DNA from: Gammaproteobacteria bacterium
GTDB taxonomy: Bacteria; Pseudomonadota; Gammaproteobacteria; Burkholderiales; Rhodocyclaceae
Reading direction: 5' to 3'
Assembly: GCA_018824085.1 (NCBI GenBank)
Contig: JAHJHI010000013.1
Span: 1-64,000, forward strand
Length of the DNA stretch: 64,000 bases
This document shows, piece after piece, positions 14,192-33,737 of the stretch. The translations under genes and the position numbers were made by a program. Under the pieces are notes generated by a model, which searched no databases, was not told where the DNA came from, and worked only from the letters and a program-made list of their open reading frames with translations. Position 1 is the stretch's first letter. Each line of letters begins with the position of its first letter.

Positions 14192-14284
14192 GGGATGACC
14201 CGTGGCGAGGTGAAGCCGTGATTTTATATGCCAGTGGCCGGCCACCGCCACCGCTGGCTGAATCTGACGAGGGGAGAAGCAGGC

Positions 14285-14656
14285 TTGGGCAAGGGATTGA
14301 TACTGTTTGGACACGGCTCGCGCGATCCCGAATGGGCGCGGCCGCTGCGTGAAGTCGCGGCCCGGATCGCCGACGCGCCCGATGCGCCGTGGGTCGAGCT
14401 GGCGTTCCTCGAATTTCTCGAACCGTCGCTCGACGTCGCCTGTGACCGGCTGGTGGCGCAGGGGGCTACCCATGTTGCGGTCGTGCCGATGTTCATCGCG
14501 CAGAGCGGCCACGTGAGGCGTGACGTGCCGGCCCGCATCGAGGCCGCGCGAGCGCGCCATCCGGCGCTGCGCATCGAGCTCGCCGTCGCGGTGGGCGAGG
14601 ACACGCGCGTGCAGGCGATCATGGCCGACGTTGCGCGGGCCGCGCTGCTGCCCTGA
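14285..14656 (+). CDS. CbiX/SirB-like sirohydrochlorin chelatase
   Basis: A 123-residue protein of the CbiX small chelatase family, which inserts Co2+ or Fe2+ into sirohydrochlorin for cobalamin or siroheme. It contains the metal/porphyrin-binding motif LILFGHGSRDPEWARPL at the N-terminus and FIAQSGHVRRDVP, with the second conserved His. The TTG at 14285 has GAGGGGAGAAG 6-16 bases upstream; an ATG at 14228 is possible but would add residues without homology. It is divergent from the LuxR-type regulator. Siroheme supply would suit a nitrite reductase elsewhere, but that link is only inference. Confidence 0.82.
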   Translation: MGKGLILFGHGSRDPEWARPLREVAARIADAPDAPWVELAFLEFLEPSLDVACDRLVAQGATHVAVVPMFIAQSGHVRRDVPARIEAARARHPALRIELAVAVGEDTRVQAIMADVARAALLP

Positions 14657-16911: not shown

Positions 16912-17493
16912 ATGGCTGTACTCAATGTCCTGATCGTGGATGAATCGCGCAAGCGTGCAGCGGAAATCTGCGCCGGCCTCGCCTGCGCCGGATACCAGGT
17001 TGCCGCCGTGCTGACGAGTGCCTACGACCTGCACAACAAGGTCCAGGAGCTGAAGCCGGACGTCATCCTGATCCAGACCGATTCGCCGTCGCGCGACACG
17101 CTCGAGCACATGGCGGCGATGGACCGTGACATGCCGCGTCCGGTCGTCGTGTTTGCCAATGATTCGGACAGCAAGACGATACGCCGCGCGATGAAGGCGG
17201 GTGTCTCCGCCTACGTCGTCGACGGGCTGGAACCCAAGCGGATAAAGCCTGTCATCGATGTCGCGCTGGCGCGCTTCGAAGAGCACCAGGAGTTGCGTCG
17301 TTCGCGCGACGAAGCCCGCCAGAAACTGTCCGAGCGCATCGCCGTCGACCGCGCCAAGGGCGTGCTCATGAAGCTGCGCGGCATCGACGAGGATGCCGCC
17401 TACCATTCGCTGCGCAAGCTGGCGATGGAGCGCGGCAAGACCATCGCCGCCGTATCCGAAGACCTCCTCGCCACCGCCCGCCTGCTCGGCTGA
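16912..17493 (+). CDS. nasT: ANTAR-domain RNA-binding antiterminator NasT
   Basis: A 193-residue NasT/AmiR-type protein. The N-terminal receiver-like domain (1-120) has VDES but only a weak match at the phosphorylation site (LIQTDSPSRDTLE), typical of NasT. A coiled coil follows (about 120-140), then the C-terminal ANTAR three-helix domain (ERIAVDRAKGVLMKL...AYHSLRKLAMERG). NasT binds paired hexaloop hairpins in nas leader RNAs and prevents termination; NasS holds it inactive without nitrate. The nasS gene follows after 442 bases under its own leader, and matching hairpins are present at 17713 and 30994. Confidence 0.92.
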   Translation: MAVLNVLIVDESRKRAAEICAGLACAGYQVAAVLTSAYDLHNKVQELKPDVILIQTDSPSRDTLEHMAAMDRDMPRPVVVFANDSDSKTIRRAMKAGVSAYVVDGLEPKRIKPVIDVALARFEEHQELRRSRDEARQKLSERIAVDRAKGVLMKLRGIDEDAAYHSLRKLAMERGKTIAAVSEDLLATARLLG

Positions 17494-17712: not shown

Positions 17713-17750
17713 CGCAACAACGATGTTGCGACCAGTGGAGCGCGAGCTCC
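17713..17750 (+). promoter_or_regulatory. ANTAR-target RNA hairpins in the nasS leader
   Basis: Hairpin 1: CGCAAC (17713-17718), hexaloop AACGAT, GTTGCG (17725-17730); the loop has A at position 1 and G at position 4 as in known ANTAR-binding RNAs. Six bases later hairpin 2: GGAG (17737-17740), loop CGCGAG, CTCC (17747-17750); G is at position 4 but C replaces A at position 1, and it could also fold as a GCGA tetraloop. Hairpin 1 is convincing; hairpin 2 is a plausible but imperfect partner. Confidence 0.68.
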
Positions 17751-17761
17751 TTCGCAGGGAC

Positions 17762-17811
17762 AAGGGCGTCCATCTTGCCGGCCATCACGCCGGAAGATGC
17801 ACGCCCTTTTT
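17762..17811 (+). terminator. Leader attenuator terminator before nasS
   Basis: A long interrupted stem: AAGGGCGT (17762-17769) with ACGCCCTT (17801-17808), a C/C mismatch, CATCTT with AAGATG, a bulged G and CCGG with CCGG, then a U-run (17807-17811). It lies about 55 nt into the leader RNA and 125 nt before the nasS ATG, where a constitutive terminator would block the operon. It is therefore read as an attenuator relieved by NasT. Confidence 0.82.
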
Positions 17812-17935: not shown

Positions 17936-19126
17936 ATGAATACGGCATCCCAAGGCACACGCACCGCGGCATGGGTGGCCGGCTCGGACGCGCCCGAACG
18001 GAAGGAAGTGCGCATCGGCTTCATGCCGCTGACCGATTGTTCGTCGCTGGTGATGGCGGCCGAGCAGAAGTTCGACGAGAAGTACGGCATCAAGATACTG
18101 CTGTCCAAGGAGGCGTCCTGGGCGGCGGTGCGCGACAAGCTCGTCAACGGCGAACTGGACGCGGCGCACGTGCTGTACGGCCTCGTCTATGGCGTGCACA
18201 TGGGCATAGGCGGGCCGAAGAAGGACATGGCCGCGCTGATGACGCTGAACAACAACGGGCAGGGCATCTCTCTGTCCTCGCAGATGCGCGACGTCGGCGT
18301 CAGCGACGGCCAGACGCTGGCGCGTGCCGTTGCCGCGAACCCGTCCGGCACCTACACGTTCGCGCAGACCTTTCCGACCGGCACGCACGCCATGTGGCTG
18401 TACTACTGGCTGGCCGCGTTCGGCATCAATCCGTTCCGCGACGTGAAGAGCATCGTCGTGCCGCCGCCGCAGATGATAGACAACTGCCGCGTCGGCAACA
18501 TGCATGGCTTCTGCGTCGGCGAGCCGTGGAACCAGCGCGGCATCGCCGACGGCGTGAGCTTTTCCGTCGCGTCGTCGCAGGACGTGTGGGCCGATCACCC
18601 CGAGAAGGTGCTCGGCACCACCGCCGACTGGGCCGACCGCCATCCCAATACCGCACGCGCGCTGACGGCCGCCGTGCTCGAAGCCAGCCGCTGGATAGAC
18701 GCGTCGGCGTCGCATCGACGCCGGACGGCGGAGACGGTCGCGGCCAAGCCCTACATCAACACCGACATGGACGTCATTCTCGGACGGATGCTCGGGCGCT
18801 ACGAGGACGGGCTCGGCCGCAGCTGGGAAGACCCGAACGCGATGAAGTTCTTCAACGACGGCGCGGTGAACTTTCCCTACCTGTCCGACGGCATGTGGTT
18901 CCTGACGCAGCACCGGCGCTGGGGCCTGCTCGGCGAGGACCCGGACTACCGGGCCGTGGCGCGCGCGATCAACCGCATCGACATCTACACCCAGGCGGCC
19001 ACCGCTGCCGGCGTTGCGCTGCCGGCCAGCGACATGCGCAGCCACCGGCTGATGGATGGCGTGGTGTGGAACGGCAACGACCCGGCGCGCTACGCCAGCG
19101 CATTCAACGTGAACAACCTCGCCTGA
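17936..19126 (+). CDS. nasS: Nitrate sensor NasS (NrtA-like, cytoplasmic)
   Basis: A 396-residue NrtA/CmpA-family protein without any signal peptide; it starts MNTASQGTRTAAWVAG directly before the ligand-binding fold (RIGFMPLTDCSSLVMA). The motifs FAQTFPTGTHAMWLYYWLA and GFCVGEPWN are those of NasS-type sensors. NasS binds nitrate in the cytoplasm and releases NasT, unlike the secreted NrtA at 31189, which shares the fold. The start has GGAAGG 8 bases upstream. It is the first gene of a six-gene operon and is itself behind an ANTAR leader, unlike the common nasS-nasT order. Confidence 0.85.
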   Translation: MNTASQGTRTAAWVAGSDAPERKEVRIGFMPLTDCSSLVMAAEQKFDEKYGIKILLSKEASWAAVRDKLVNGELDAAHVLYGLVYGVHMGIGGPKKDMAALMTLNNNGQGISLSSQMRDVGVSDGQTLARAVAANPSGTYTFAQTFPTGTHAMWLYYWLAAFGINPFRDVKSIVVPPPQMIDNCRVGNMHGFCVGEPWNQRGIADGVSFSVASSQDVWADHPEKVLGTTADWADRHPNTARALTAAVLEASRWIDASASHRRRTAETVAAKPYINTDMDVILGRMLGRYEDGLGRSWEDPNAMKFFNDGAVNFPYLSDGMWFLTQHRRWGLLGEDPDYRAVARAINRIDIYTQAATAAGVALPASDMRSHRLMDGVVWNGNDPARYASAFNVNNLA

Positions 19127-19183
19127 ACGGGCGGTGCAGCGGCCCCGACACGACACGCCTCCGACACGGAACCGATCCTTGCC

Positions 19184-21187
19184 ATGAACAGCCCGCAGAC
19201 ACTCGATGCGCTGACCATGCCCGGCGCGAGCCACGCAGCGGACGACGCGCCGCTGCCGACCGTCGTCATCGGCAGCGGGCCGGTCGGCCTGCGCCTCGCC
19301 CACGAGCTGTGCGCGCGCAATCCGGGCGGTCGCGTCATCGTCTATGGCGACGAGCCGCAGGCGCCGTACAACCGCGTGAAGCTGTCGTCATGGCTGGCCG
19401 GCGAGATCGGCTACGGCGGCCTGGCCGGCGACGTGGCGCTGCCACCGCAAGCGCAGTGCGAGCTGCGGCTGGGCCGGCGCATCGCCGCCATCGACACCAC
19501 GGCGCAGGTCGTCACGGATGCGGCCGGCGAGCGCCAGCGCTACGGCGCGCTGGTGCTGGCGACCGGTTCGCGCCCGCGGGTGCCCGAGACGCCCGGCATG
19601 CAATTGCCGGGTGTCTATACCTTCCGGGATTTCGCCGATGCGCAGTCGCTGTTCGCGCGCCAGGTGCGCAGCCGCCACACCGTCGTGCTCGGCGGCGGCC
19701 TGCTCGGCATCGAAACGGCGCGCGGCATGCGGCGGCTCAATACCGACGTCACGCTGATCGACCATTCCGAACACCTGATGTCGCGCCAGCTCGACGCGCC
19801 GGGCGCAGCGCTGCTGCGCGATCACGTCGAGCGCGCAGGCATCCGGGTGCGGCTCAATGATCCGGTCATGGAAGTGCTCGGCGAGGAGCGGGTCAGCGGC
19901 GTGCGCCTGCTCGGCGGCGAATGCCTCGAGTGCGACACGCTGGTGCTGGCGACCGGCATCGTGGCCCGCATCGAACTGGCGCGCAGCGCGGGCATCGCGG
20001 TCGGCCGCGGCATCCGCGTCGACGACCGGATGCGCACGTCAGACCCGTACGTCTATGCCGTCGGCGAATGCGCCGAGCACCGAGGCATCGTCTATGGCCT
20101 GGTCGCGCCGGGCTACGAACAGGCGGCCGTCGCCGCGCACGTGATCAGCGGCGGCGACGCGAGCTATGCCGGCACGGTGTCGGCCACGCGGCTCAAGGTG
20201 CTGGGCGTGCCGGTGATGAGCATCGGTTCGGTCAGCGGCGCGCGAGCCGATCTTGCACGCGAGGTGCGTCACGCGTCGGCCGACGGCGAAGCCTGTCGCA
20301 GCGTCGTCGTGCGCCGCGGCGTCATCGTCGGCGCGACCTCGGTCGGTGTCTGGCCCGAGGCACGCCGCGTACAGGAGGCGGTCACCCACGGCCGGCGCGT
20401 CTGGCCCTGGCAGCTGTTGCGCTTCCGTCGCACCGGCATGCTGTGGCCCGACTCCGGCGCCGACTCGGTCACCGCGTGGCCGGCAGACGCCGTCGTATGC
20501 AACTGCACCGGCGTCACGCGCGCCCGGCTGGACGGCGCCATCGCCAGCGGATGCCGCAGCGTGGCCGAGCTGTCGGCCTGTACCGGTGCGTCGACGGTGT
20601 GCGGTTCATGCAAGCCGCAACTGGCTGAACTGCTCGGCGGCAGTGCGGCGCTCGAACCGGAGCGCGACGCCGGCTGGCTGTGGGGCGGCGGCCTCGCGGC
20701 GCTGCTGCTGGCGGCGCTGGTCTGGCTGCCGCTGGACATTCCCTATCCCGATACCGCGTCGCTGCGCGTGCATTGGGATCTGCTGTGGCGCGACGGATTC
20801 GTGAAGCAGGTGAGCGGTTTCACGCTGCTCGGCATCGCCGTGCTGCTGGCGGCGCTGTCGCTGCGCAAACGCGTGCCCGCGCTGGCGAAGACCGGACGCT
20901 ATGCGACCTGGCGCGCACTGCACATCGGTCTGGGCGTCGCCGTGCTGGTCGCCCTGGCCGTGCATGCGGGCGGACGCATGGGCAGCAACCTGAATCTGTG
21001 GCTGTCGGCATGCATGGCCGGTGCCGCGCTGGCCGGCGCGTTCGCCAGTCTGGGCATCGCGCGCAACCACGTGCCGGCGCATCCGGCGCGGCGCTGGCGT
21101 CCGGCCGCCACCTGGGTCCACGTGCTGCTGCTGTGGCCGCTGCCGGTGCTGCTCGGCTTCCACATCCTGAAGACCTACTGGTACTGA
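19184..21187 (+). CDS. NAD(P)H/FAD/[2Fe-2S] oxidoreductase fused to a putative di-heme b membrane domain
   Basis: A 667-residue fusion. Residues about 20-420 form a NirB/NasC-like FAD/NAD(P)H reductase: GSGPVGLRLAHEL (FAD), GGGLLGIETARGM (NAD). Residues 439-476 carry a BFD-type [2Fe-2S] motif, CxC-X31-CxxC (CNC at 439, CGSC at 473). The siroheme half of NirB is absent. The C-terminal about 180 residues hold four or five transmembrane segments, two of which carry His pairs spaced H-X13-H (His580/594 and His646/660), as in di-heme cytochromes b. It probably moves electrons from NADH across the membrane to the cytochrome encoded two bases downstream. The acceptor reaction is not known. Confidence 0.8.
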   Translation: MNSPQTLDALTMPGASHAADDAPLPTVVIGSGPVGLRLAHELCARNPGGRVIVYGDEPQAPYNRVKLSSWLAGEIGYGGLAGDVALPPQAQCELRLGRRIAAIDTTAQVVTDAAGERQRYGALVLATGSRPRVPETPGMQLPGVYTFRDFADAQSLFARQVRSRHTVVLGGGLLGIETARGMRRLNTDVTLIDHSEHLMSRQLDAPGAALLRDHVERAGIRVRLNDPVMEVLGEERVSGVRLLGGECLECDTLVLATGIVARIELARSAGIAVGRGIRVDDRMRTSDPYVYAVGECAEHRGIVYGLVAPGYEQAAVAAHVISGGDASYAGTVSATRLKVLGVPVMSIGSVSGARADLAREVRHASADGEACRSVVVRRGVIVGATSVGVWPEARRVQEAVTHGRRVWPWQLLRFRRTGMLWPDSGADSVTAWPADAVVCNCTGVTRARLDGAIASGCRSVAELSACTGASTVCGSCKPQLAELLGGSAALEPERDAGWLWGGGLAALLLAALVWLPLDIPYPDTASLRVHWDLLWRDGFVKQVSGFTLLGIAVLLAALSLRKRVPALAKTGRYATWRALHIGLGVAVLVALAVHAGGRMGSNLNLWLSACMAGAALAGAFASLGIARNHVPAHPARRWRPAATWVHVLLLWPLPVLLGFHILKTYWY

Positions 21188-21189
21188 GC

Positions 21190-22650
21190 ATGAGCGCGAC
21201 GACATCGAGGAACCGCCTGCTGTGGCTGACCTGGACCGTGCTCAGCGCGCTGTCCGCCGGGCTGTTGTGGTTCGGGCTGCAGGCGGGCACGGAGGCGCCG
21301 GGGCCGATGAACGTCGTGCGCACCGCCTTCCTGCCGGGGCAGACCAGCCACGGCCATCACCAGATCGAGCTGGCCTGTTCGACCTGCCACGGCAGCGAAG
21401 CCTTCACGGCCGCGGACGTGATGCAGGACGCCTGTACGCAGTGCCACGGCGCCGAACTGAAGAACGTGGATGACTCGCACCCGCGCAGCAAGTTCACCGA
21501 TCCGCGCAACGCCGAGCGGGCGGCGCGTCTGGACGCCGCGCACTGCGTCACCTGCCACGTCGAGCACAAGCCCGACATCACGCATGCCATGGGGGTGACG
21601 CTGCCGACGGATTTCTGCGTCATCTGCCACCAGGATGTCGCCGATGACCGCCCGAGCCACGCCGGGCTGGGTTTCGACACCTGCGCCAGCAGCGGTTGCC
21701 ACAACTTCCATGACAACCGTGCGCTGTATGGCGACTTCCTCGTCAAGCACGCCGGCAAACCCGACCTGCTGGACACGCGCGAAGTGCTGCCACGTGACTG
21801 GAAGACGGTGCTGGAGGAGTTGTACGAGAGCTACCCGATAGACCGCTTCCCGCTGCAGGCGCTGACCGAGCCGGATGCCCCCGCCGGCAAGGGCAGCGCA
21901 CAGGTGCATGACGAGGTGAACAAGGACTGGCTGGCAACGTCGCACGCGAAGGCCGGCGTCAACTGCAGCGGCTGCCATGAGGTCGCGCCGGCGGCCGGAC
22001 AGCCGGCGATGTGGGCGGACCGCCCCGATCACACCGTGTGCGCCACCTGCCACAAGCCGGAAGTGAACACCTTCCTCGCCGGCAGGCACGGCATGCGGCT
22101 GGCCGCCGGCATGCCGGCGATGACACCGGCGGAAGCCATGATTCCGATGAAGGCGGACGCGCCGCATGACGGCATCGGCTGCACCACCTGCCACGGCGCG
22201 CACCGGTTCGATACCGCGCACGCGGCGACCGACGGCTGCCTCGCCTGCCACGCCGACGAGCACAGCAAGGCGTTCGGCGCATCGCCACACGCCGCGCTCG
22301 CAGCGAAGGAGGCGAGCGGGGCGCTGCCGGCCGGCAGCGCGGTGACCTGCGCCACCTGCCACATGCCGCGCATCGAGCACCGCACCGACGACGTGCGCCG
22401 CACGCTGGTGCAGCACAACCAGAACGACACGCTGCGCCCGTCCGACAAGATGCTGCGCCCGGTCTGCATGCGCTGCCACAGCCTGCAGTTCTCGATCGAC
22501 GCGCTGGCCGATGCCGGGCTGGTCGCGCGCAACTTCAGGGGCAAGCCTTCGCTTCATGTCGAAAGCATCGACTGGGCGCTGAAGGATGCCGCGCGAGCCG
22601 AGGCGGAACGCCAGGCCGCGAAAACCGGAAACCCCGATGGGCAGCCATGA
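21190..22650 (+). CDS. Undecaheme membrane-anchored cytochrome c
   Basis: A 486-residue protein with one N-terminal hydrophobic helix (about 10-27, uncleaved anchor or signal) and eleven heme c motifs: ten CXXCH (the first at residue 63, the last CMRCH at 426) plus one CX4CH (CASSGCH, about residue 169). A region of about 100 residues lacking motifs splits the hemes into groups of five and six. No CXXCK motif is present, so it is not an obvious NrfA-type nitrite reductase. It most resembles periplasmic multiheme electron carriers. ATG two bases after the flavoprotein stop, so the genes are coupled. Confidence 0.8.
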   Translation: MSATTSRNRLLWLTWTVLSALSAGLLWFGLQAGTEAPGPMNVVRTAFLPGQTSHGHHQIELACSTCHGSEAFTAADVMQDACTQCHGAELKNVDDSHPRSKFTDPRNAERAARLDAAHCVTCHVEHKPDITHAMGVTLPTDFCVICHQDVADDRPSHAGLGFDTCASSGCHNFHDNRALYGDFLVKHAGKPDLLDTREVLPRDWKTVLEELYESYPIDRFPLQALTEPDAPAGKGSAQVHDEVNKDWLATSHAKAGVNCSGCHEVAPAAGQPAMWADRPDHTVCATCHKPEVNTFLAGRHGMRLAAGMPAMTPAEAMIPMKADAPHDGIGCTTCHGAHRFDTAHAATDGCLACHADEHSKAFGASPHAALAAKEASGALPAGSAVTCATCHMPRIEHRTDDVRRTLVQHNQNDTLRPSDKMLRPVCMRCHSLQFSIDALADAGLVARNFRGKPSLHVESIDWALKDAARAEAERQAAKTGNPDGQP

Positions 22651-22699
22651 ACTGCGCACCGGACACCCCCGCCATCCACCCGCCCTCAGGAGCATTGCC

Positions 22700-23263
22700 A
22701 TGAAAGTGATCCGCCTCTTCACCGCAGCATCCACCCTCGCGCTCAGCGCCGGTCTCACCCAGGCTGCCGACACCGCCGGCTGGAGCTACAAGGACATTGC
22801 CGACGCGCTGCATGCCGTCATGGAATCCGATCGCACCGTCTATACCCGGCTCATCGTCAACCGCCTGCAGAACGAGGAGAAGGTCATCAAGGCAAGCGAG
22901 CACTGGAAGGACGACAAGGCGCTGGTGCTGCCGGCGCAGATGTTCCGCTTCGGCGCGGAAATGGTGGCCGAGAAGGACGCCGGCTTCACCTATTCGTTGC
23001 TGTCCGAGTGGCCGATCAACAAGCAGAACGCGGCCAAGACCGACGTCGAGAAGGCCGGTCTGTCCGAGATCGCGAAAACCGGCAAGCCCTTCTACAAGGA
23101 GGAAACGCTGGGCGGCAAGAAATTCTTCACCGCCGTCTATCCGGACAAGGCCGTCGCCAAGGCCTGCATCAGCTGTCACAACGACCACAAGGACACGCCG
23201 CGCCGTGACTTCAAGATGGGCGAAGTGATGGGCGGCGTGGTGCTGCGCCTGCCGATGAAGTGA
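22700..23263 (+). CDS. Periplasmic DUF3365/Tll0287-like c-type heme protein
   Basis: A 187-residue protein with a clear signal peptide (ending GLTQAADT, about residue 21) and a single heme motif CISCH near residue 157. The fold signature (KDIADALHAVMES... AVYPDKAVAKACISCHNDH) matches the Tll0287-like/DUF3365 family, a PAS-like domain with c-type heme. AGGAG precedes the ATG. The family is linked to redox sensing or electron transfer; here the position in a cytochrome operon favours a periplasmic electron-transfer or sensing role. Confidence 0.8.
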   Translation: MKVIRLFTAASTLALSAGLTQAADTAGWSYKDIADALHAVMESDRTVYTRLIVNRLQNEEKVIKASEHWKDDKALVLPAQMFRFGAEMVAEKDAGFTYSLLSEWPINKQNAAKTDVEKAGLSEIAKTGKPFYKEETLGGKKFFTAVYPDKAVAKACISCHNDHKDTPRRDFKMGEVMGGVVLRLPMK

Positions 23264-23270
23264 GGCCGTG

Positions 23271-23636
23271 ATGAGCACGCAGCACATCCGTCTTGTCGTC
23301 GTGCTGGGCGCACTGGTCTGGCCGTTGCACGCGGCGGCGGCCGGTGGCGGCTGGCCGGAATTCGACGACGCGCATCTGCAGGCCGGGCGCGAAGTGTGGC
23401 TCGGCACCTGTCGCGAGTGCCATGCCAATTCGCTGTCCGACGCGCCGCAGGCTAAGGACCGTGACGCCTGGCGCCCGCGCGCCGCGAAGGGGCGCGAGGC
23501 GCTGTACCGGCACGCGCTCGACGGCTTCGAGGGGCCGTCCGGCACCGAAATGCCGGCGCGTGGCGGCAATGCGTCACTCACCGACGCCGAGGTGAAATCG
23601 GCCGTCGATTACATGTTGAAAGTCGCCGTGCCCTGA
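23271..23636 (+). CDS. Small monoheme cytochrome c (class I/c5-like)
   Basis: A 121-residue periplasmic cytochrome with a signal peptide (ending HAAAAGG, about residue 22), heme motif CRECH near residue 45, a candidate axial Met in TEMPARGGN near residue 95 and a C-terminal helix (LTDAEVKSAVDYMLK). It starts seven bases after the previous stop; GTG at 23268 is an alternative in-frame start. It likely shuttles electrons to or from the undecaheme cytochrome. Confidence 0.85.
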   Translation: MSTQHIRLVVVLGALVWPLHAAAAGGGWPEFDDAHLQAGREVWLGTCRECHANSLSDAPQAKDRDAWRPRAAKGREALYRHALDGFEGPSGTEMPARGGNASLTDAEVKSAVDYMLKVAVP

Positions 23637-23672
23637 GCGGGCAAGGCGCGAAACCCGAACGAGGAACACATC

Positions 23673-24083
23673 ATGACTCCGCAACAAATCGATACGCTCA
23701 AGTCGTCCTGGGCCAAGGTGGTGCCGATCAAGGACACCGCGGCCGAACTGTTCTACGGCAAGCTGTTCGAGCTTGACCCGGCCGTCAAGCCGCTGTTCAG
23801 CGGCGACATGAAGGAGCAGGGCCGCAAGCTGATGGCCGCGATCAACACCGTGGTGAACGGCGTGGACAATCTCGCGCCGATGATTCCGGTGCTGCAGGAG
23901 ATGGGCAAGCGCCACGTCGCCTACGGCGTGACGGACGCGCACTACGACACCGTCGGCGCGGCGCTGATCTGGACGCTGGGCCAGGGGCTGGGCGACGGCT
24001 TCACGCCTGACGTGAAGGACGTCTGGGTCGGCGCCTACGGCACCATCTCGGGCGTCATGAAGGAGGCCGCAGCGACCGCCTGA
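23673..24083 (+). CDS. Single-domain bacterial globin
   Basis: A 136-residue single-domain globin, family length, without reductase domain or signal peptide. The proximal His lies in GKRHVAYGVTDAHYDTVG (about residue 85), and helix B/E features follow VPIKDTAAELFYGKLFELDPAVKPLF. Such globins bind O2 or NO and with a reductase act as NO dioxygenase. As last gene of a NasST-controlled operon, protection from NO or nitrite-derived species is the best guess. A 9-bp inverted repeat (24091-24099 with 24113-24121) follows but has no U-run. Confidence 0.88.
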   Translation: MTPQQIDTLKSSWAKVVPIKDTAAELFYGKLFELDPAVKPLFSGDMKEQGRKLMAAINTVVNGVDNLAPMIPVLQEMGKRHVAYGVTDAHYDTVGAALIWTLGQGLGDGFTPDVKDVWVGAYGTISGVMKEAAATA

Positions 24084-24165
24084 GCGTCGCGCACGGCCGT
24101 TCGCGGTGCGGGCGGCCGTGCCGTCCGGCGCTATCATCACGGCTCGACGTTTCCGTGGTCATGGC

Positions 24166-24867
24166 ATGCCGGACGCACCCCTTTCGCTGTTGCTGGTCGA
24201 CGATGACCACGAACTGAGCGCGCTGCTGGGCGAGTACATCGCGAACGAAGGTTTTGCGGTGGAGCACCTGAGCGATGGCGCACAGGCACTGGAGCGGTTG
24301 CGCAACGCCCGCGTCGACATCGTCGTGCTCGACGTCATGATGCCGCTGATGTCGGGCATCGAAGTGCTGCGGCGCCTGCGGGCGTTCTCCGGCGTGCCCG
24401 TGCTCATGCTGACGGCGCGCGGCGATGATATCGATTGCGTGCTGGCACTGGAACTCGGCGCCGACGACTACGTGCAGAAGCCCTGCGCGCCGCGCGAGCT
24501 CGTCGCGCGGCTGCGCGCCATCCTGCGCCGCATGTCGGCGCTTCGCACGCACGCGGCGGCGTCCGGCAGCATTGTCGTCGGGGCGCTGGCCGTGTGGCCG
24601 CAGCGCCGCGCGGCCGAATACGGCAGCACGCCGATCGCGCTCACCAGCACCGAATACAGCCTGCTTGAAGTGCTGATGCGCCACGCCGGCAGCGTCGTGT
24701 CGAAGAACGACCTGTCGCTGAAGGCGCTGGGCCGGGCGATGGGGCCGTACGACCGCAATGTCGATGTTCATGTCAGCGCCATCCGCCAGAAGATCGCGCC
24801 GCTCTCCGGCGGCCGTGCGCTGATCCAGACCGTGCGCGGCGTCGGCTACCAGCTCGTGCGCGACTGA
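24166..24867 (+). CDS. OmpR-family response regulator, CpxR-like
   Basis: A 233-residue regulator: receiver (1-120; VDDDHELS, phospho-Asp in VVLDVMMPLMSG, Lys in VQKPCAPREL) and winged helix (about 140-230; LTSTEYSLLEVLMRHAGSVVSK, DRNVDVHVSAIRQKI). The domain is closest to the CpxR subgroup. ATG at 24166; an upstream GTG at 24157 is possible. Its stop overlaps the kinase start by one base. A triple CpxR-type repeat sits before the EF-hand gene downstream, a likely target. Confidence 0.85.
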   Translation: MPDAPLSLLLVDDDHELSALLGEYIANEGFAVEHLSDGAQALERLRNARVDIVVLDVMMPLMSGIEVLRRLRAFSGVPVLMLTARGDDIDCVLALELGADDYVQKPCAPRELVARLRAILRRMSALRTHAAASGSIVVGALAVWPQRRAAEYGSTPIALTSTEYSLLEVLMRHAGSVVSKNDLSLKALGRAMGPYDRNVDVHVSAIRQKIAPLSGGRALIQTVRGVGYQLVRD

Positions 24868-26150
24868 TGGGGCGCCTTTTCTGGAAGCTCTTCGCGGCCT
24901 TCGTCATGGCGCTGGCGCTGTCCGGCCTGCTCGTCGCCGCCACGCTGTCCGTGCTGATGCCGGGCGCGCGCGGCCCGGCGCCGCGTGCGGCATTCATGGC
25001 CGACACCGCCGCGCGCATGCTGCAGTCGACCGACGCGGATACCGTGCGCACGCTGCTTGAGAGCTGGCGCGACGCGGCAGACGCGCGCCCGCGTGTGGTC
25101 GGGCCGGACGGCCGCGAGCTGCTCGGACGCGAAGCGGGTGACGGACGTGGCGCAGGGGGCCGGATCATCGACGTCGATGTCGCCGGCGCGACCTGGCGCG
25201 TCATCGAAGGCCGGCGCATGAGCGGGCCGCCGACTCGCGGCGGATGGCGACTGCCGCCGCCGCCCTTCATTGAAATCGTTGCCGGCGTGCTCGGCGCGCT
25301 CGCCTTCAGCGCGGCCCTCGCGTGGTATCTGTCGCGCCCGGTGCGCCATCTGCACCGGGCGTTCGACGCGCTCGCCAAGGGGCGGCTGGATGTGCGCGTC
25401 GCGCCGCTCATCGGCTCCCGGCGCGACGAGATCGCCGACCTCGGCCGCGGCTTCGACCGCATGGCGGCGCAGATCGAACATCTGTTGCAAGCGCAGCGCA
25501 CGCTGCTGCACGACGTGTCACACGAGCTGCGCTCGCCGCTGGCGCGCATGACGGCGGCCATCGGACTCGCGCGGCAGGACCCGGCACGCGGCGACGCCAT
25601 GTTCGAGCGCGTCGAGCGCGAGGCGGCCCGGCTGGACGTACTGGTGGGAGAGCTGCTGGGGCTGTCGCGGCTGGAGTACGACGCCGGGCGCAGCGCGCCG
25701 CAGAACGTGGACCTGCGCGCGCTGCTGCAGCAGGTGGCTGACGACGCGCGCTTCGAGGCGCGCGCGGGCGGCGGCGACGTGGAACTCGTCGCCGTGGCGG
25801 CACGGGTCAGCGGCCATGCGGAACTGCTGCGCCGCGCACTCGACAACGTGCTGCGCAATGCCGTGAAGCACGCGCCGGCCGGGCGTTGCGTACAGGTGGT
25901 TCTCGCAGCCGGTGCGGGCACGGCGCGCATTGCGGTGACCGACTGCGGCGGCGGCGTTGCCGAAGCCGAGCTCGAACGCATCTTCGACCCGTTCTTCCGC
26001 ACGGCCCGGGGCGAGGCCGAGAACGGCTGCGGGCTCGGCCTCGCCATCGCGCGGCGCGCGGTCGAAGCGCATGGCGGCACCATAGGCGCGAGCAATGCGC
26101 CCGGCGGCGGACTGCGCATCGACATCGTGCTGCCGCTCGCGGCGCACTGA
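24867..26150 (+). CDS. Sensor histidine kinase, CpxA-like
   Basis: A 427-residue kinase: transmembrane helix about 8-32, a small periplasmic domain of about 95 residues, second helix about 130-155 preceded by a Pro-rich stretch (RLPPPPF), HAMP (to about 205), HisKA with the phospho-acceptor in LLHDVSHELRSPL (His about 217), and HATPase with DNVLRNAVKHAP (N box), TDCGGGV and CGLGLAIARR (G boxes). Start overlaps the regulator stop (TGATG). Confidence 0.88.
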   Translation: MGRLFWKLFAAFVMALALSGLLVAATLSVLMPGARGPAPRAAFMADTAARMLQSTDADTVRTLLESWRDAADARPRVVGPDGRELLGREAGDGRGAGGRIIDVDVAGATWRVIEGRRMSGPPTRGGWRLPPPPFIEIVAGVLGALAFSAALAWYLSRPVRHLHRAFDALAKGRLDVRVAPLIGSRRDEIADLGRGFDRMAAQIEHLLQAQRTLLHDVSHELRSPLARMTAAIGLARQDPARGDAMFERVEREAARLDVLVGELLGLSRLEYDAGRSAPQNVDLRALLQQVADDARFEARAGGGDVELVAVAARVSGHAELLRRALDNVLRNAVKHAPAGRCVQVVLAAGAGTARIAVTDCGGGVAEAELERIFDPFFRTARGEAENGCGLGLAIARRAVEAHGGTIGASNAPGGGLRIDIVLPLAAH

Positions 26151-27183: not shown

Positions 27184-27316
27184 AGCGCCTTGCTCCCGGG
27201 CGACGTCCGGTGCGGACGGCGCCCCGGGGGCGGTCTGGCGGGCTTTGCCCGTGCCCGGGCGCCGCTCGCCGCCGCTCTGGGCGATAATCCGGCTTTTCCC
27301 GGCCTGCGCATCGCCC

Positions 27317-27811
27317 ATGAAAGTTTTCGGATTTGCCGGTTACAGCGGCTCCGGCAAGACGACGCTGATCGAACAGCTCATTCCCCATTTCGTGCTGGAA
27401 GGGCTGACCGTCTCGCTGATCAAGCATGCTCATGCGGGCTTCGACATCGATCGCCCGGGCAAGGACTCCTTCCGCCTGCGCGAAGCGGGTTGTTCCGAAG
27501 TGCTGCTGACGTCGAACAACCGCTGGGTCCTGATGCACGAATTGCGTGGCCAGTCCGAACCGGGGCTGGACCAGCAGATCGCCGCGCTGAGCCCGTGCGA
27601 CCTCGTGCTGGTCGAAGGTTTCAAGGCGTCGCCGATTCCCAAGCTGGAAATCCACCGCCCCGCCTACGGCAGACCGCTGATGTATCCGGAGAACCCGCAC
27701 GTCGTCGCCGTGGCGACCGACGAAGCGATGGAACTTCCGTTGCCCCGGCTCGACCTCAATGACGTGGAGGCGATCGCTGCCTTCATCCTCAGCCACCAGG
27801 GATTCCGATGA
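27317..27811 (+). CDS. mobB: Molybdopterin-guanine dinucleotide biosynthesis protein MobB
   Basis: A 164-residue P-loop GTPase ([15 protein letters not shown], residues about 8-22) with the MobB hallmarks HAGFDIDRPGKDSFRLREAG and LVLVEGFKASPIPKLEIHR. It assists MobA in attaching GMP to molybdopterin to form MGD, used by nitrate reductases. ATG chosen at the conserved MKVFGFAG start; a -10-like GATAAT lies about 30 bases upstream. Its stop overlaps moeA by four bases. Confidence 0.93.
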   Translation: MKVFGFAGYSGSGKTTLIEQLIPHFVLEGLTVSLIKHAHAGFDIDRPGKDSFRLREAGCSEVLLTSNNRWVLMHELRGQSEPGLDQQIAALSPCDLVLVEGFKASPIPKLEIHRPAYGRPLMYPENPHVVAVATDEAMELPLPRLDLNDVEAIAAFILSHQGFR

Positions 27812-29028
27812 ACGAAATGCTCACGCTTGATGCGGCCCTTGAGCGCCTGCTTGCCGCAGCGCGCCCGATCGCCGACACCGAAACGGTTTCGACCTTCCAG
27901 GCCAGTGGCCGCGTACTGGCCGTCGACCAGCGCTCGTCGCTGACGGTGCCGCCGCTCGACAACAGCAGCATGGACGGCTACGCGGTGCGCACGGCCGACA
28001 TCGACGCGGCCGGCGCCTGCCTGCCGGTCAGCCAGCGCATTGCGGCCGGCCATGTCGGCGAAGCGCTGGCGCCGAAGACCTGCGCGCGCATCTTCACCGG
28101 CGCGCCGGTGCCGCCGGGCGCCGATGCCATCGTGATGCAGGAGTCCACGCGCACGACGGCGGACGGCGTCTGTTTCGACGACATGCCGACGCCGGGCGCG
28201 TGGATACGGCGGGCCGGCGAGGACATACGCGCCGGCGATACGGTGCTGACGGCCGGCACGCGGCTGCGTGCGCAGGAAGTCGGGCTCGCCGCGTCGGTCG
28301 GGCTGGCCGACCTGCCGGTCGTGCGCCGGCCGCGTGTCGCACTCTTTTCCACCGGCGACGAACTGGTCATGCCGGGCGAGGCGCTGCCGCCCGGCGGCAT
28401 CTACAACTCGAACCGCTACACGCTGCGTGCGCTGTGCGAGGCGCTTGGCTGCGACGTGCTCGATCTGGGCATCGTGCCGGACCGTCTCGACGCCACCCGC
28501 GCGGCGCTGCGCGAAGCGGCGGCGCAGTGCGACCTGATCCTGACCAGCGGCGGCGTCGGCGTCGGCGAAGAAGACCACATCAAGCCGGCGCTGACAGCGG
28601 AAGGCGCGCTCGACAGCTGGAAGATCGCGATGAAGCCGGGCAAGCCGCTGGCTTTCGGTCACGTGCGACGTGGCCAGGGCGGTGGCCAGGCCGATTTCAT
28701 CGGTCTGCCGGGCAATCCGGTGTCCAGCTTCGTCACCTTCCTGCTGCTGGTGCGGCCCTTCATCCTGCGCCGCACCGGGGTGAAGGACGTGGCACCGCGT
28801 CCGTTCGCCGTCCGCGCCGGCTTCGACTGGCCGCGGCCCGACCGTCGGCGCGAATTCCTGCGCGTGCGCAGGAATGCCGACGGCGCCGTCGAACTGTTCG
28901 CCAACCAGAGTTCCGGCGTGCTGACCTCCACCGTCTGGGGCGACGGTCTGGTCGACCTCGCGGCCGGGCAGACCGTCGCGCGTGGCGACGTGCTGTCCTT
29001 CCTGCCTTTCGAATCACTGCTTTACTGA
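27808..29028 (+). CDS. moeA: Molybdopterin molybdenumtransferase MoeA
   Basis: A 406-residue MoeA, which inserts molybdate into adenylated molybdopterin. Conserved segments: PPLDNSSMDGYAVR (about 50-63), SNRYTLRALCEALG, the MPT-binding region SGGVGVGEEDHIK and MKPGKPLAFG, and LPGNPVSSFVTF. The start overlaps mobB (ATGA). Part of a mobB-moeA-moaD-moaE operon that would supply Moco to a nitrate reductase not in this window. Confidence 0.95.
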   Translation: MNEMLTLDAALERLLAAARPIADTETVSTFQASGRVLAVDQRSSLTVPPLDNSSMDGYAVRTADIDAAGACLPVSQRIAAGHVGEALAPKTCARIFTGAPVPPGADAIVMQESTRTTADGVCFDDMPTPGAWIRRAGEDIRAGDTVLTAGTRLRAQEVGLAASVGLADLPVVRRPRVALFSTGDELVMPGEALPPGGIYNSNRYTLRALCEALGCDVLDLGIVPDRLDATRAALREAAAQCDLILTSGGVGVGEEDHIKPALTAEGALDSWKIAMKPGKPLAFGHVRRGQGGGQADFIGLPGNPVSSFVTFLLLVRPFILRRTGVKDVAPRPFAVRAGFDWPRPDRRREFLRVRRNADGAVELFANQSSGVLTSTVWGDGLVDLAAGQTVARGDVLSFLPFESLLY

Positions 29029-29037
29029 GAGCCGTTC

Positions 29038-29292
29038 ATGAACATCAAGGTGCTCTATTTCGCCGCGCTGCGTGAAGCGCTCGGAACCCCGGGCGAGACG
29101 CTCGCGCTGCCGCCGGGGTGCACCACGCTGGCCGATGTGCGCGCGCTGATTGCCGCGCGTGGCGGCGACTGGGAGAAGCTGGCGCAGATGAAGAACCTGC
29201 GTGCCGCGATCAACCAGCGCATGGCCGAGCCGTCGAGCACGCTGGCCGACGGCGACGAGGTGGCATTCTTTCCGCCGGTGACCGGAGGCTGA
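29038..29292 (+). CDS. moaD: Molybdopterin synthase sulfur carrier MoaD
   Basis: An 84-residue ubiquitin-like protein ending in the required Gly-Gly (PPVTGG), which is thiocarboxylated and donates sulfur to precursor Z. It lies 9 bases after moeA and 1 base before moaE. Confidence 0.95.
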   Translation: MNIKVLYFAALREALGTPGETLALPPGCTTLADVRALIAARGGDWEKLAQMKNLRAAINQRMAEPSSTLADGDEVAFFPPVTGG

Positions 29293-29293
29293 C

Positions 29294-29749
29294 ATGAGTT
29301 TTTCAGCGTGCGTGCAGGAAGCCGATTTCGATATCGGCGCCGAGATCGACACCCTGCTGGGCGAGCGCGGCGACGTCGGCGCCGTGGCCACCTTCAGTGG
29401 CCTGGTGCGCGACATGAATGACGGCAGCGGCGTGCACGCAATGACGCTGGAGCACTATCCCGGCATGACCGAAGCGGCGCTGACCGACATCATCGATCAG
29501 GCGCGCGCGCGCTGGCAGATCATGGGCGCGCGCGTCGTGCATCGCGTCGGCCAACTGCGTCCGCGCGACCGTATCGTGCTGGTCATCGTTGCCGGTGCGC
29601 ATCGTGGCGAGGCGTTCGCCGCCTGCGAATTCATCATGGATTTCCTGAAGACCCGCGCGCCGTTCTGGAAGCGCGAGGACACGCCGGACGGCAGCCGCTG
29701 GGTCGACGCCCGCGAATCCGACGACAGCGCCGCGCAGCGCTGGAAGTAG
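29294..29749 (+). CDS. moaE: Molybdopterin synthase catalytic subunit MoaE
   Basis: A 151-residue MoaE. Conserved features: GAVATFSGLVRDMN, LEHYPGMTE, RVVHRVGQLRPRDRIVLV, AFAACEFIMDFLKTRAPFWKRE (with the active-site lysines). It forms the heterotetramer with MoaD that makes molybdopterin. Last gene of the Moco operon. Confidence 0.95.
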   Translation: MSFSACVQEADFDIGAEIDTLLGERGDVGAVATFSGLVRDMNDGSGVHAMTLEHYPGMTEAALTDIIDQARARWQIMGARVVHRVGQLRPRDRIVLVIVAGAHRGEAFAACEFIMDFLKTRAPFWKREDTPDGSRWVDARESDDSAAQRWK

Positions 29750-30993: not shown

Positions 30994-31086
30994 CGACTTT
31001 CCAATGGCGGAAGGTCGCAGCGCGCATGACGCCGTTTCTTGCCGATTGCGCGCCTCATCACGACAGGCGGCCCACTGACGGGTTGC
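30994..31086 (+). promoter_or_regulatory. ANTAR-target RNA: paired hexaloop hairpins in the nrt leader
   Basis: Hairpin 1: CGACTTTCC (30994-31002), loop AATGGC, GGAAGGTCG (31009-31017), 9 bp with one G-U. Hairpin 2: GCGGCCC (31067-31073), loop ACTGAC, GGGTTGC (31080-31086), 7 bp with two G-U pairs. Both loops are six bases with A at position 1 and G at position 4, the ANTAR-target signature. The linker of about 50 nt is longer than in typical ANTAR RNAs. Confidence 0.75.
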
Positions 31087-31097
31087 TCCGGACACCG

Positions 31098-31150
31098 GCG
31101 TCCACGAACCTCTGGTCATCAGACCGGCGTTCGTGGGCGCTTTTTTTTTT
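31098..31150 (+). terminator. Leader attenuator terminator before nrtA
   Basis: GCGTCCACGAAC (31098-31109) pairs with GTTCGTGGGCGC (31129-31140), 12 bp with one G-U and internal pairing in the loop, followed by ten T residues (31141-31150). It ends 38 bases before the nrtA ATG and downstream of the two hexaloop hairpins: a classic attenuator, expected to be overridden by NasT when nitrate is present. Confidence 0.92.
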
Positions 31151-31188: not shown

Positions 31189-32595
31189 ATGAACCGCAAC
31201 CCGTCTTCGCGCCATCCGCTTCAGGCGCACGCTGACAGCGTGCGCCGTACGCTGATGAGCGCCGTGCTCGTTGCCGGCGTGCTCGGCATGCCGGCACTTG
31301 CCGCCGACAAGATCGAGAAACCCGACCTGAAGTTTGGCTTCATCAAGCTGACCGACATGGTGCCGCTGGCGATCGCCTACGAGAAGCGCTACTTCGAGGA
31401 TGAAGGCCTGTACGTCACGCTGGAAGCGCAGGCCAACTGGAAGGTGCTGCTGGACCGCGTCATCTCCGGAGAGCTTGACGGCGCGCACATGCTGGCCGGC
31501 CAGCCGCTCGGCGCGACGATAGGCTACGGTACCAAGGCCGACGTCATCACGGCGTTCAGCATGGACCTGAATGGCAACGGCATCACCGTGTCGAATGCGG
31601 TGATGGCGAAGCTCAAGGAAAAGCTGCCCAGACAGGCGGACGGCAAGCCGGTGCATCCGGTGAAGGCCGAGTACCTGAAGCCGGTCGTCGATGCCTACAG
31701 GAAGGAGGGCAAGCCGTTCAAGATGGGCATGGTGTTCCCGGTGTCCACGCACAACTACGAGCTGCGCTACTGGCTCGCGTCGGGTGGCATGAATCCCGGC
31801 TACTACGCACCGCTCAAGGGCGACACCTCCGGCAACATCAGCGCCGACGTGCTGCTGTCGGTGACGCCGCCGCCGCAGATGCCGGCGACGATGGAAGCCG
31901 GCACCATCGACGGCTATTGCGTGGGCGAGCCGTGGAATCAGCAGGCCGTGGTCAAGGGCATCGGCGCGCCGGTCATCACCGATTACGAAATCTGGAAGAA
32001 CAATCCGGAGAAGGTGTTCGGCGTGACCGCGGGCTGGAACGACAAGTATCCGAACACCCACAAGGCTGTCGTGAAGGCGCTGATCCGCGCCGCCTACTGG
32101 CTGGACGCCGACAACAACAAGAACCGCAAGGAAGCCGCGCGGATCATTTCGAAGTCCGGCTATGTCGGCGCCGACTTCGACGTGATCGACAACAGCATGA
32201 CCGGCACCTTCGAATACGAGAAGGGTGACGTGCGTCCGGTGCCCGACTTCAACGTGTTCTTCCGCTACAACGCGACCTATCCGTACTACTCGGATGCCAT
32301 CTGGTACCTGACGCAGATGCGCCGCTGGGGCCAGATCGCCGAGTACAAGCCGGACAGCTGGTACAAGGACATCGCGAAGCAGGTCTATCGCTCGGACATC
32401 TACGCGGCGGCTGCGAAGGAGCTGATCGCGGAAGGGAAGATGAAGGCGTCGGACTTCCCGGACTTCGCGAAGGAAAGCGGCTTCAAGCCCGCCACCAACG
32501 AGTTCATCGATGGCGTGACGTATGACGGCAGCAAGCCGAACGCCTACATCGACAGCCTGAAGATCGGCCTCAAGGGCAAGGACGTCGTCAAGTAA
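31189..32595 (+). CDS. nrtA: Nitrate ABC transporter substrate-binding protein NrtA
   Basis: A 468-residue NrtA/CmpA-family binding protein with a signal peptide (residues 1-39, ending MPALAADK). The mature part begins [27 protein letters not shown] and contains [21 protein letters not shown] and [14 protein letters not shown]. It captures nitrate (possibly nitrite) in the periplasm. The family also binds bicarbonate (CmpA), but the NasST-type leader and the Moco genes nearby favour nitrate. GGGAG lies 11 bases upstream of the ATG. Confidence 0.92.
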
Positions 32596-32711
32596 GGGCC
32601 GCCCGCAGCGGCGGCATGCGACGGGCGCCCGCCAGTGCGCCCCGTCTCCGGTCCGGGACAGCGAAGGCCCTGCCGGAGGCGCCGATTCGATACAACCCGA
32701 GGTGGACAGCC

Positions 32712-33725
32712 ATGCTCAATTCAACGGCGAACTTTCTCAACCGGACCGGCTTCACATGGTTCGTCCCTTTCATCAGGCTTGCGGCGGGTGAGGATCCGCG
32801 CGAGCAGTTCCGCGACATCCTGCTGCAGATCGGCGTTCCGGTGCTGGCGCTCGCGCTGTTCCTCGGGCTGTGGAACGTGCTCGCCGCCGGTGTGCAGACC
32901 AGCCTCGGCGCGATTCCGGGGCCGGTCCAGGTGGCGGAGGAGGCGATCGGCCTGATCGACGAATACCACGCCGAGCGTGCGAAGGAAGACGCCTTCTACG
33001 AACGCCAGAAGGTGCGCAATGCCGAGATGCTGGCGCAGGATCCGGCGGCCACCGTGGTGATCCGCCAATGGACCGGCAAGCCGACCTATCTGGACCAGAT
33101 CATCACCAGTCTCTACACGGTGTTTACCGGCTTTGCGATCGGCACGCTGGTGGCGGTGCCGCTGGGCGTGCTGTGCGGCCTGAGCCGCACCTTCCAGCTC
33201 GCGCTCAATCCGCTGATACAGATATTCCGGCCGGTGTCTCCGCTGGCCTGGCTGCCCATCGTCACGCTGATGGTCAGCGCGCTCTATGTGAGCGCGGATC
33301 CCATGTTCCAGAAGTCCTTCGTCGTGTCGGCCATCACCGTCACGCTGTGCTCGCTGTGGCCGACGCTGATCAATACGGCGGTGGGGGTGGCGTCGATCGA
33401 CAAGGACCTGCTCAACGTGTCCAGGGTGCTGCGCCTGTCCTGGTGGACCAAGGTGACCAAGATCGTGCTGCCGTCGTCGCTCAAGCTCATCTTCACCGGC
33501 CTGCGCCTGTCGCTCGGGGTGGGCTGGATGGTGCTCATCGCAGCGGAAATGCTGGCGCAGAACCCGGGCCTGGGCAAGTTCGTCTGGGACGAATTCCAGA
33601 ACGGAAGTTCGCAGTCGCTCGGCCGAATCATGGTGGCGGTATTCACCATCGGTTTCGTCGGCTTCCTGCTCGACCGCGTCATGAACACGCTGCAGCAGCT
33701 CGCCAGCTTCGGCGACACTCACTGA
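32712..33725 (+). CDS. nrtB: Nitrate ABC transporter permease NrtB
   Basis: A 337-residue inner membrane permease. The core has the usual MetI-type fold with LGVGWMVLIAAEMLAQNPGLGKFVWDEFQNG (EAA-like loop region, residues about 270-300). Compared with cyanobacterial NrtB, an extra charged segment of about 60 residues (about 80-140, EYHAERAKEDAFYERQKVRN) separates the first helix from the core. ATG chosen with GAGGTGG upstream; it lies 116 bases after nrtA. Confidence 0.92.
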   Translation: MLNSTANFLNRTGFTWFVPFIRLAAGEDPREQFRDILLQIGVPVLALALFLGLWNVLAAGVQTSLGAIPGPVQVAEEAIGLIDEYHAERAKEDAFYERQKVRNAEMLAQDPAATVVIRQWTGKPTYLDQIITSLYTVFTGFAIGTLVAVPLGVLCGLSRTFQLALNPLIQIFRPVSPLAWLPIVTLMVSALYVSADPMFQKSFVVSAITVTLCSLWPTLINTAVGVASIDKDLLNVSRVLRLSWWTKVTKIVLPSSLKLIFTGLRLSLGVGWMVLIAAEMLAQNPGLGKFVWDEFQNGSSQSLGRIMVAVFTIGFVGFLLDRVMNTLQQLASFGDTH

Positions 33726-33737
33726 GCGGAGGCACAC

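Follow-up and report, generated by a model that had tools for sequence, protein, structure and literature searches.

A six-gene operon that may export electrons for nitrate assimilation was identified in the window, the 64,000-nucleotide (nt) stretch at positions 1–64,000 of contig JAHJHI010000013.1 from a Rhodocyclaceae bacterium (assembly GCA_018824085.1; genome size, 4.28 Mb). The operon encodes a solute-binding protein, a membrane protein that carries NADH/FAD, [2Fe-2S] and di-haem b domains, an 11-haem cytochrome c, a DUF3365 haem protein, a small cytochrome c and a single-domain haemoglobin (Table 1). Our preferred reading, to which we give a probability of roughly 0.45, is that this is a NasT-controlled electron-export module of nitrate assimilation, most likely keeping nitric oxide (NO) low. 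The anatomy, the conservation and the NasT-type control of the module are well supported, and the conserved ligands lead us to infer a haem wire; the terminal reaction, NO handling, is drawn from analogy and unproven. All six genes are open at their listed positions and strand, with intergenic gaps of 2–57 nt, and Pyr_redox_2, Fer2_BFD, Cytochrom_c3_2, Tll0287-like, Cytochrome_CBB3 and Globin were each matched above their own Pfam cut-offs. The operon proposed by a first-pass annotation, made from the bare sequence, is thus real in positions, strand and protein families, and its inventory is extended here by nasT, a leader RNA, nitrate transporter (nrt) genes preceded by another leader, and genes for the molybdenum cofactor.

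The first-pass annotation had proposed looking for the same gene order in other genomes. Gene presence and order were determined by tblastn in the best 80 of at least 457 confirmed cytochrome relatives from a GTDB scan, in which the near-identical pairs L048/L049 and L061/L065 are each counted twice. Genes in these loci were called by homology and length, with starts that are wrong in places. The core order FAD–cytochrome–DUF3365–globin was kept in 65/80 loci, and the gene set therefore goes beyond chance. A FAD hit, which could in principle be NirB, lay within 5 kb of the cytochrome in 79/80 loci (the remaining locus is at a contig end), and DUF3365 was near it in 78/80; the globin was present in 66 loci and the small cytochrome c in 42. 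Mean identity was highest for DUF3365 (0.60), followed by the globin (0.555), the cytochrome (0.50) and the FAD protein (0.44) over 1431 pairs, and was 0.42 over 325 pairs for the small cytochrome c. The distribution of the cytochrome is patchy: it occurred in 2/13 genomes of the genus (window genome included), 2/41 relatives and 27/369 sampled genomes of the class. Its nearest named relative found is in Methyloversatilis thermotolerans (L056, 78% identity). The module is widespread: represented among the best 80 loci are Beta-, Gamma- and Alphaproteobacteria together with metagenome-assembled genomes named Nitrospirota, Verrucomicrobiia, Opitutales and Poribacteria. An apparent fusion of the membrane domain to the cytochrome in L061, L065 and L103 was rejected, as the open reading frames (ORFs) of 744–745 residues start out of frame and tblastn finds the FAD protein there.

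Residues 27–485 of the membrane protein align to residues 2–466 of NirB, and the best 50 of 1763 Foldseek matches of its FAD model were FAD enzymes. The protein is not a NirB by family score, with 374 bits against a TIGR02374 cut-off of 578.35, and no NIR_SIR (sirohaem) domain was among its Pfam matches. Across 43 aligned homologues, no variation was seen in the four cysteines of the [2Fe-2S] cluster (C439, C441, C473 and C476) or in the histidines H580, H594, H646 and H660, which form two HX13H pairs. The predicted model (predicted local distance difference test score, pLDDT, 88.8) has five membrane helices at residues 496–514, 538–560, 573–595, 603–626 and 634–650/652–666. The loop at 561–572 is basic, with five K/R and no D/E, and fits a FAD domain on the inside; the loop at 627–633, with one K/R only, carries little information on topology. 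Together, the invariant histidines and the five-helix model bear out the guess of a di-haem b domain, in which the inner haem would be bound by H580/H646 and the outer one by H594/H660. The membrane part alone reached no Pfam family cut-off (best DUF7937, 18 versus 31 bits). At L122 (positions 1–1316), a membrane di-haem protein without a FAD domain lies 5′ of the cytochrome and DUF3365 genes, with upstream stops in all three frames.

The cytochrome carries 11 haem motifs in 79/79 called homologues; those of the window protein are ten CxxCH and one CX4CH. Eleven further histidines are conserved, ten of them in 47/47 aligned sequences and H97 in 46/47, so that every haem could have two histidine ligands. 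Cytochrom_c3_2 is matched by the N-terminal half (9e-14), and a profile comparison of the cytochrome with the PDB brought up NrfA, eight-haem nitrite reductases and proteins like hydroxylamine oxidoreductase (HAO). The score against the NrfA family Cytochrom_C552 was below its Pfam cut-off (15.3 versus 24.1 bits), and CXXCK, the motif type of the NrfA catalytic haem, was found in 0/79 called homologues. The best Foldseek match was a Brocadia HAO, a weak one with an E value of 9.6e-3 and a template modelling (TM) score of 0.27–0.30; the other 15 had E values of 3.9 or more and included four NrfA chains. Profile alignments were made to three HAO-type groups obtained from a PF13447 search of the class, namely A4 (8 strong matches), A5 (12 intermediate) and A6 (4 weaker). 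The best alignments had probabilities of 96.9, 99.4 and 98.3 and E values of 1.6e-10, 4.2e-21 and 1.2e-14, respectively. In all three, cytochrome haems 6–10 were paired with HAO haems 2, 3, 5, 6 and 7, and in two of the three haem 11 was paired with HAO haem 8; the colinear haem pattern of the HAO fold is present, with 5/8 HAO haems matched for A4 and 6/8 for A5 and A6. In the top-scoring alignment for every group, haem 4, at which HAO and related enzymes carry out catalysis, faced a gap. Because this haem has no counterpart in the best alignments and each haem has a spare histidine, the cytochrome looks like a wire, and the simplest reading of its sequence is an HAO-related electron conductor.

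The 442-nt gap between nasT and the operon contains two hexaloop hairpins (17713–17730, loop AACGAT; 17758–17771, loop AAGGGC), the second overlapping an intrinsic terminator (17762–17811, z −5.8), and the same pair was found in M. thermotolerans (L056). The target of ANTAR domains is described as a pair of hairpins, each closed by a C:G pair and bearing a hexaloop with A1 and G4, of which the second overlaps a terminator (PMC7496416). A strict scan for such pairs found three places on the plus strand of the window (17713, 31066 and 39848), none on the minus strand and none in 20 one-strand shuffles. Across the loci, matches lay 5′ of 10/64 module FAD genes, 18/50 binding-protein genes, 0/154 cytochrome or DUF3365 genes and 1/485 others (Fisher p 2.4e-9 for FAD versus other genes); the FAD genes counted are those of 600–770 residues that have the cytochrome gene within 400 nt on their 3′ side and enough upstream DNA.

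A covariance model, R1, was built from 19 sites (alignment A9), which replaced a set of 22 (A8) by dropping L088, L109 and the window site. Stems and a second loop rich in purines were the picking criteria, so that these sites match R1 by construction and their pair counts lean towards structure. At E ≤ 0.1, R1 gave 51 hits in the 80 loci: 23 at FAD genes, 21 at binding-protein genes, one at nasT, one at a porin gene, four at other genes and one at none. Three of the four others (L061, L065 and L103) sit at a miscalled FAD frame. The C-G closing pair, which was not a picking criterion, is invariant in both hairpins (19/19) and fits the NasR motif from systematic evolution of ligands by exponential enrichment (PMC7496416). 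The nasT gene lies in the fetched stretch of 34/80 loci, and the leader also occurs in loci without a nitrate gene in the stretch examined (L072, L074, L085, L087 and L088). The leader had no Rfam match; one match elsewhere (E 0.59) was below the gathering score. The third strict-scan match in the window, at 39848, had no R1 match at E ≤ 1 and may be chance. Since a NasT-type antitermination leader lies 5′ of the FAD gene or the first operon gene, nitrate control of the operon is well supported at the sequence level. The nitrate response suggested by the first-pass annotation is supported, on the basis of nasT and the leader RNA more than of a presumed nasS.

By eye, the window binding protein, the product of the presumed nasS, starts at the mature part and has no export signal, which is present in L056; the permease gene that adjoins the binding-protein gene in L056 is absent at the window locus. 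In a tree with 50 homologues, it grouped with the copies of M. thermotolerans, L053, L047 and L048, which bear a twin-arginine-like start (by eye), and outside the signal-less nasT-linked group, that is, outside the NasS clade. It is thus a transporter-type binding protein minus its export signal. It may be a cytosolic nitrate sensor; if it now acts in the cytosol, it would have come to a NasS-like role by another route.

The wider context also includes nitrate genes. A specific nitrate-related gene was found in 46/80 loci (33/54 long ones). In the window genome, a NasA-like gene, phosphatase/kinase-like and NarK-like genes (both by eye) and nirB lie together on another contig (C24), and no HAO (PF13447) or NrfA (PF02335) match was found in this genome at E ≤ 0.001. 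Full NirB was present in 22/27 module genomes versus 144/342 others of the class sample (p 8e-5), and in 23/28 module genomes altogether; 25 of the 28 have a NasC/NasA family match, none above the family cut-off. A shared non-nitrate context was considered for the loci without nitrate genes and rejected: 75 of 153 neighbour proteins were scanned, and the commonest Pfam families occurred in only 2.

The globin gene and its replacements bear on the substrate. Tyr28, Gln49 and His81 occur in 67, 67 and 66 of 67 globin sequences, which we take to be the B10, E7 and F8 pattern of flavohaemoglobins. Five of the 14 globin-less loci have a truncated haemoglobin (PF01152), which follows the small cytochrome of the module in four and, in L105, upstream DUF3365 and small cytochrome genes. 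L053 and L073 have a COX2–COX1–SCO cluster instead (by Pfam for L053 and by tblastn for L073), in which the COX2-type subunit has a CuA-like motif (by eye), HPEVY is missing from the COX1-type subunit and the third gene is of the SCO1/SenC type. This cluster is presumably norS-norY-senC, a proposed NO reductase, judged by motif and not by a family match. A slot in which globin, truncated haemoglobin and an NO reductase-like haem-copper oxidase are interchangeable points to NO. A globin and a flavoprotein in a NasT-type operon, the trait of Bjgb and Flp, are present in the module; in Bradyrhizobium, narK-bjgb-flp-nasC is described as NasT-regulated nitrate assimilation with NO detoxification (PMC4724949).

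The DUF3365 protein has one CXXCH motif in 77/77 aligned sequences. No cysteine outside this motif is conserved, and 59/77 have no further cysteine after residue 30; sequence comparison gave no alignment to a solved relative. According to PMC12889525, an sCache_heme member that is fused to a signalling module and lacks the axial cysteine binds NO tightly, and stand-alone DUF3365 proteins are thought to be redox-like. A second DUF3365 protein is encoded in the window genome (L001; G000:C32:107914-108411), 5′ of a 703-residue ORF; it looks like a signalling member, given the membrane helices and the HAMP-like region recognised in it by eye.

The remaining features surround the operon. The first nrt gene had no match in an NCBIfam search and was named nrtA by position; the following genes matched TIGR01183 at 2e-46, which falls short of its cut-off, and TIGR01184 at 3.5e-186, which passes it. 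The interval from the operon to the nrt genes contains molybdenum cofactor ORFs (27245–29749), of which moeA (27808–29028) was identified by profile search and the mobB-, moaD- and moaE-like ORFs by eye. A CpxR/CpxA-like two-component pair (24106–26150) is located immediately 3′ of the globin gene and is also 3′ of the module in M. thermotolerans (L024; regulator identity, 77%); the cluster of its regulator occurs in L056, L085 and L123. A small CbiX/sirohydrochlorin-chelatase-like ORF (14228–14656, by eye) adjoins regulator genes. A porin-like gene (cluster c9) was found near the module in nine loci (L070, L084, L091, L097, L102, L113, L114, L119 and L125). Its L070 member matches Alginate_exp, it lies immediately 5′ of the FAD gene in L097, L114, L119 and L125, and in L084 it has an R1 leader.

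Table 1. Coordinates of the operon and associated features in the window.
Feature	Position	Strand	Basis
nasT, response regulator with ANTAR RNA-binding domain (antiterminator)	16912–17493	+	Pfam ANTAR 1e-16, Response_reg 5.9e-9
NasT-type leader RNA	17713–17811	+	Strict scan; terminator z −5.8
NMT1_2/NrtA-type solute-binding protein (nasS of the first-pass annotation)	17936–19126	+	Pfam NMT1_2 5.6e-96
NADH/FAD (NirB N-terminal half) + BFD [2Fe-2S] + five-helix putative di-haem b membrane protein	19184–21187	+	
Membrane-anchored 11-haem cytochrome c; c3-like N-terminal half, HAO-like C-terminal half	21190–22650	+	
DUF3365/Tll0287 (sCache_heme) stand-alone c-haem protein, signal peptide by eye	22700–23263	+	Pfam 4.2e-20
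Single-haem cytochrome c, signal peptide by eye, optional member	23271–23636	+	Pfam Cytochrome_CBB3 5.6e-11
Single-domain haemoglobin, flavohaemoglobin type, no signal peptide seen	23673–24083	+	Pfam Globin 2.7e-15; NCBIfam flavohaemoprotein 6.1e-19, below cut-off
Second NasT-type leader, 5′ of nrt genes, end approximate	31066–31150	+	Strict scan; R1 31068–31105, E 0.00096
Nitrate ABC transporter genes	31189–35498	+	nrtA by position 31189–32595, permease 32616–33725, double ATPase 33738–35498

In the proposed mechanism, electrons would pass from NADH through FAD and the [2Fe-2S] cluster to the inner haem b (H580/H646), the outer haem b (H594/H660) and the 11-haem wire, which would be an HAO relative lacking the active-site haem and fused to a c3-like half. 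From there they would reach the DUF3365 haem and, where present, the small cytochrome c. NO and related species would be kept low during the uptake and reduction of nitrate and nitrite. On the periplasmic side the chain would terminate at the DUF3365 haem, a possible binder of NO. Cytosolic NO would be dealt with by the globin, which might receive its electrons from the same FAD domain, as has been suggested for Flp and Bjgb in Bradyrhizobium. The NADH-fed path across the membrane into a periplasmic haem wire, as the first-pass annotation had imagined it, is supported by these sequence features. Its list of possible roles narrows: NO is favoured, on sequence and analogy, because of the globin-slot swaps and the Bradyrhizobium parallel. 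The cytochrome is unlikely to reduce nitrite or hydroxylamine itself, because HAO haem 4 is left unpaired in the best alignments to all three groups and the genome encodes a full NirB and a NasA-like protein on another contig.

Several observations weigh against the preferred reading. The direction of electron flow is assumed, and the model of the wire is modest (pLDDT 79) with a weak best structural match. A second register to A4 is nearly equal to the best one (probability 96.5, E 9.5e-10) and places cytochrome haem 6 on HAO haem 4; the alternative second and third registers for A5 and A6 are much weaker. The leader of the window operon is itself a weak R1 match (17737–17773, E 0.36), probably because of a long spacer, and R1 found no leader at E ≤ 1 in the fetched nasA–nirB stretches of the window genome (L146 and L147). 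No specific nitrate gene lies in the stretch examined of 34/80 loci, and neither globin nor substitute was found in seven of the 80 (L067, L083, L084, L099 at a contig end, L118, L122 and L123). Met41, Met81, Met177, His68 and His163 of DUF3365 are conserved in 70–77 of 77 sequences (each methionine in at least 74), and one of them could be a sixth haem ligand. In PMC12889525, a stand-alone member with an axial cysteine binds NO weakly and releases it fast, and its C59A variant behaves likewise, so that a missing cysteine alone does not predict tight NO binding. A methionine ligand displaceable by NO is possible by analogy with GSU0935, in which NO displaces the methionine ligand, as reported in PMC8396549.

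Four other readings were weighed. Surplus NADH electrons might simply be vented into the wire, with DUF3365 as a periplasmic redox or NO sensor or as a donor to other periplasmic carriers. The view of stand-alone DUF3365 proteins as redox-like, the weak NO binding of the one tested (PMC12889525) and the optional small cytochrome c (42/80) agree with such a valve, but no conserved signalling partner accompanies the module and the CpxR/CpxA-like regulator cluster occurs in 3/80 loci only; we consider it unlikely, if not markedly so. An NADH-driven, NasT-switched periplasmic reductase of NO, or nitrite, with the Cache c-haem as its active site and the HAO relative minus its catalytic haem as its wire, seems rather unlikely. 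It is also conceivable that the FAD/[2Fe-2S] domain donates electrons to NasA, in the role of Flp or NasB, while the haem wire brings or removes electrons at the membrane. Growth of Bradyrhizobium on nitrate needs Flp (PMC4724949), a nasA cluster member lies in the stretch of 9/80 loci, and the NasC/NasA family matches in module genomes, all below cut-off, are in keeping with this. However, in the window genome NasA lies outside the module, near nirB, the 11-haem protein and DUF3365 would go unexplained, and at L122 the FAD domain is missing while the membrane domain, the wire and DUF3365 are all retained, all of which makes a NasA donor distinctly doubtful.

The 11-haem cytochrome could itself form ammonium from nitrite or hydroxylamine and so stand in as the assimilatory nitrite reductase. 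Its C-terminal half is related in sequence to HAO, eight-haem nitrite reductases and NrfA, its best Foldseek match is HAO, it is under nitrate control, and the alternative A4 register would supply a haem opposite HAO haem 4. This candidate was nevertheless rejected, as the best alignments to the three groups give haem 4 no counterpart, CXXCK is absent from the 79 homologues, each haem has one conserved spare histidine and most module genomes encode full NirB; we judge it improbable. Electron export that keeps NO low thus stays the preferred reading.

If this reading is true, nitrate assimilation, which is usually drawn as cytosolic, would spend NADH on periplasmic redox chemistry, and the fold of a nitrogen-cycle enzyme became an electron wire through loss of its active-site haem. 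The module also bears on the release of NO and N2O from nitrate-assimilating bacteria. The first-pass annotation did not recognise the gene combination as a described pathway, and no study of it turned up in searches of the open-access literature.

Comparison with known systems places the module between several families. NADPH oxidase and ferric reductase type transmembrane reductases feed two b haems on paired helices from cytosolic NAD(P)H and FAD; the module differs from them in its NirB-type FAD domain, its extra [2Fe-2S] cluster and its dedicated 11-haem acceptor. Compared with NirB, the membrane protein shares the FAD/NADH and BFD [2Fe-2S] parts and has a di-haem b domain, not a sirohaem domain. 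The cytochrome resembles the HAO/octahaem family in haems 2, 3, 5, 6 and 7 (and 8 in two of three groups) and in their order in the best alignments, but it has no counterpart of haem 1 or, in those alignments, of haem 4, no catalytic site was recognised in it, and a c3-like half and a membrane anchor are added. The DUF3365 protein shares the single CXXCH of the sCache_heme proteins described in PMC12889525; it is stand-alone like the redox group of that study and, like its NO-sensing example, has no conserved extra cysteine. A close parallel is the Bradyrhizobium narK-bjgb-flp-nasC operon (PMC4724949), which has NasS–NasT control, a single-domain haemoglobin, a FAD/NAD(P)H protein and a link to nitrate assimilation in common with the module, and differs from it in having nasC inside the operon and no described membrane domain, multihaem cytochrome or DUF3365.

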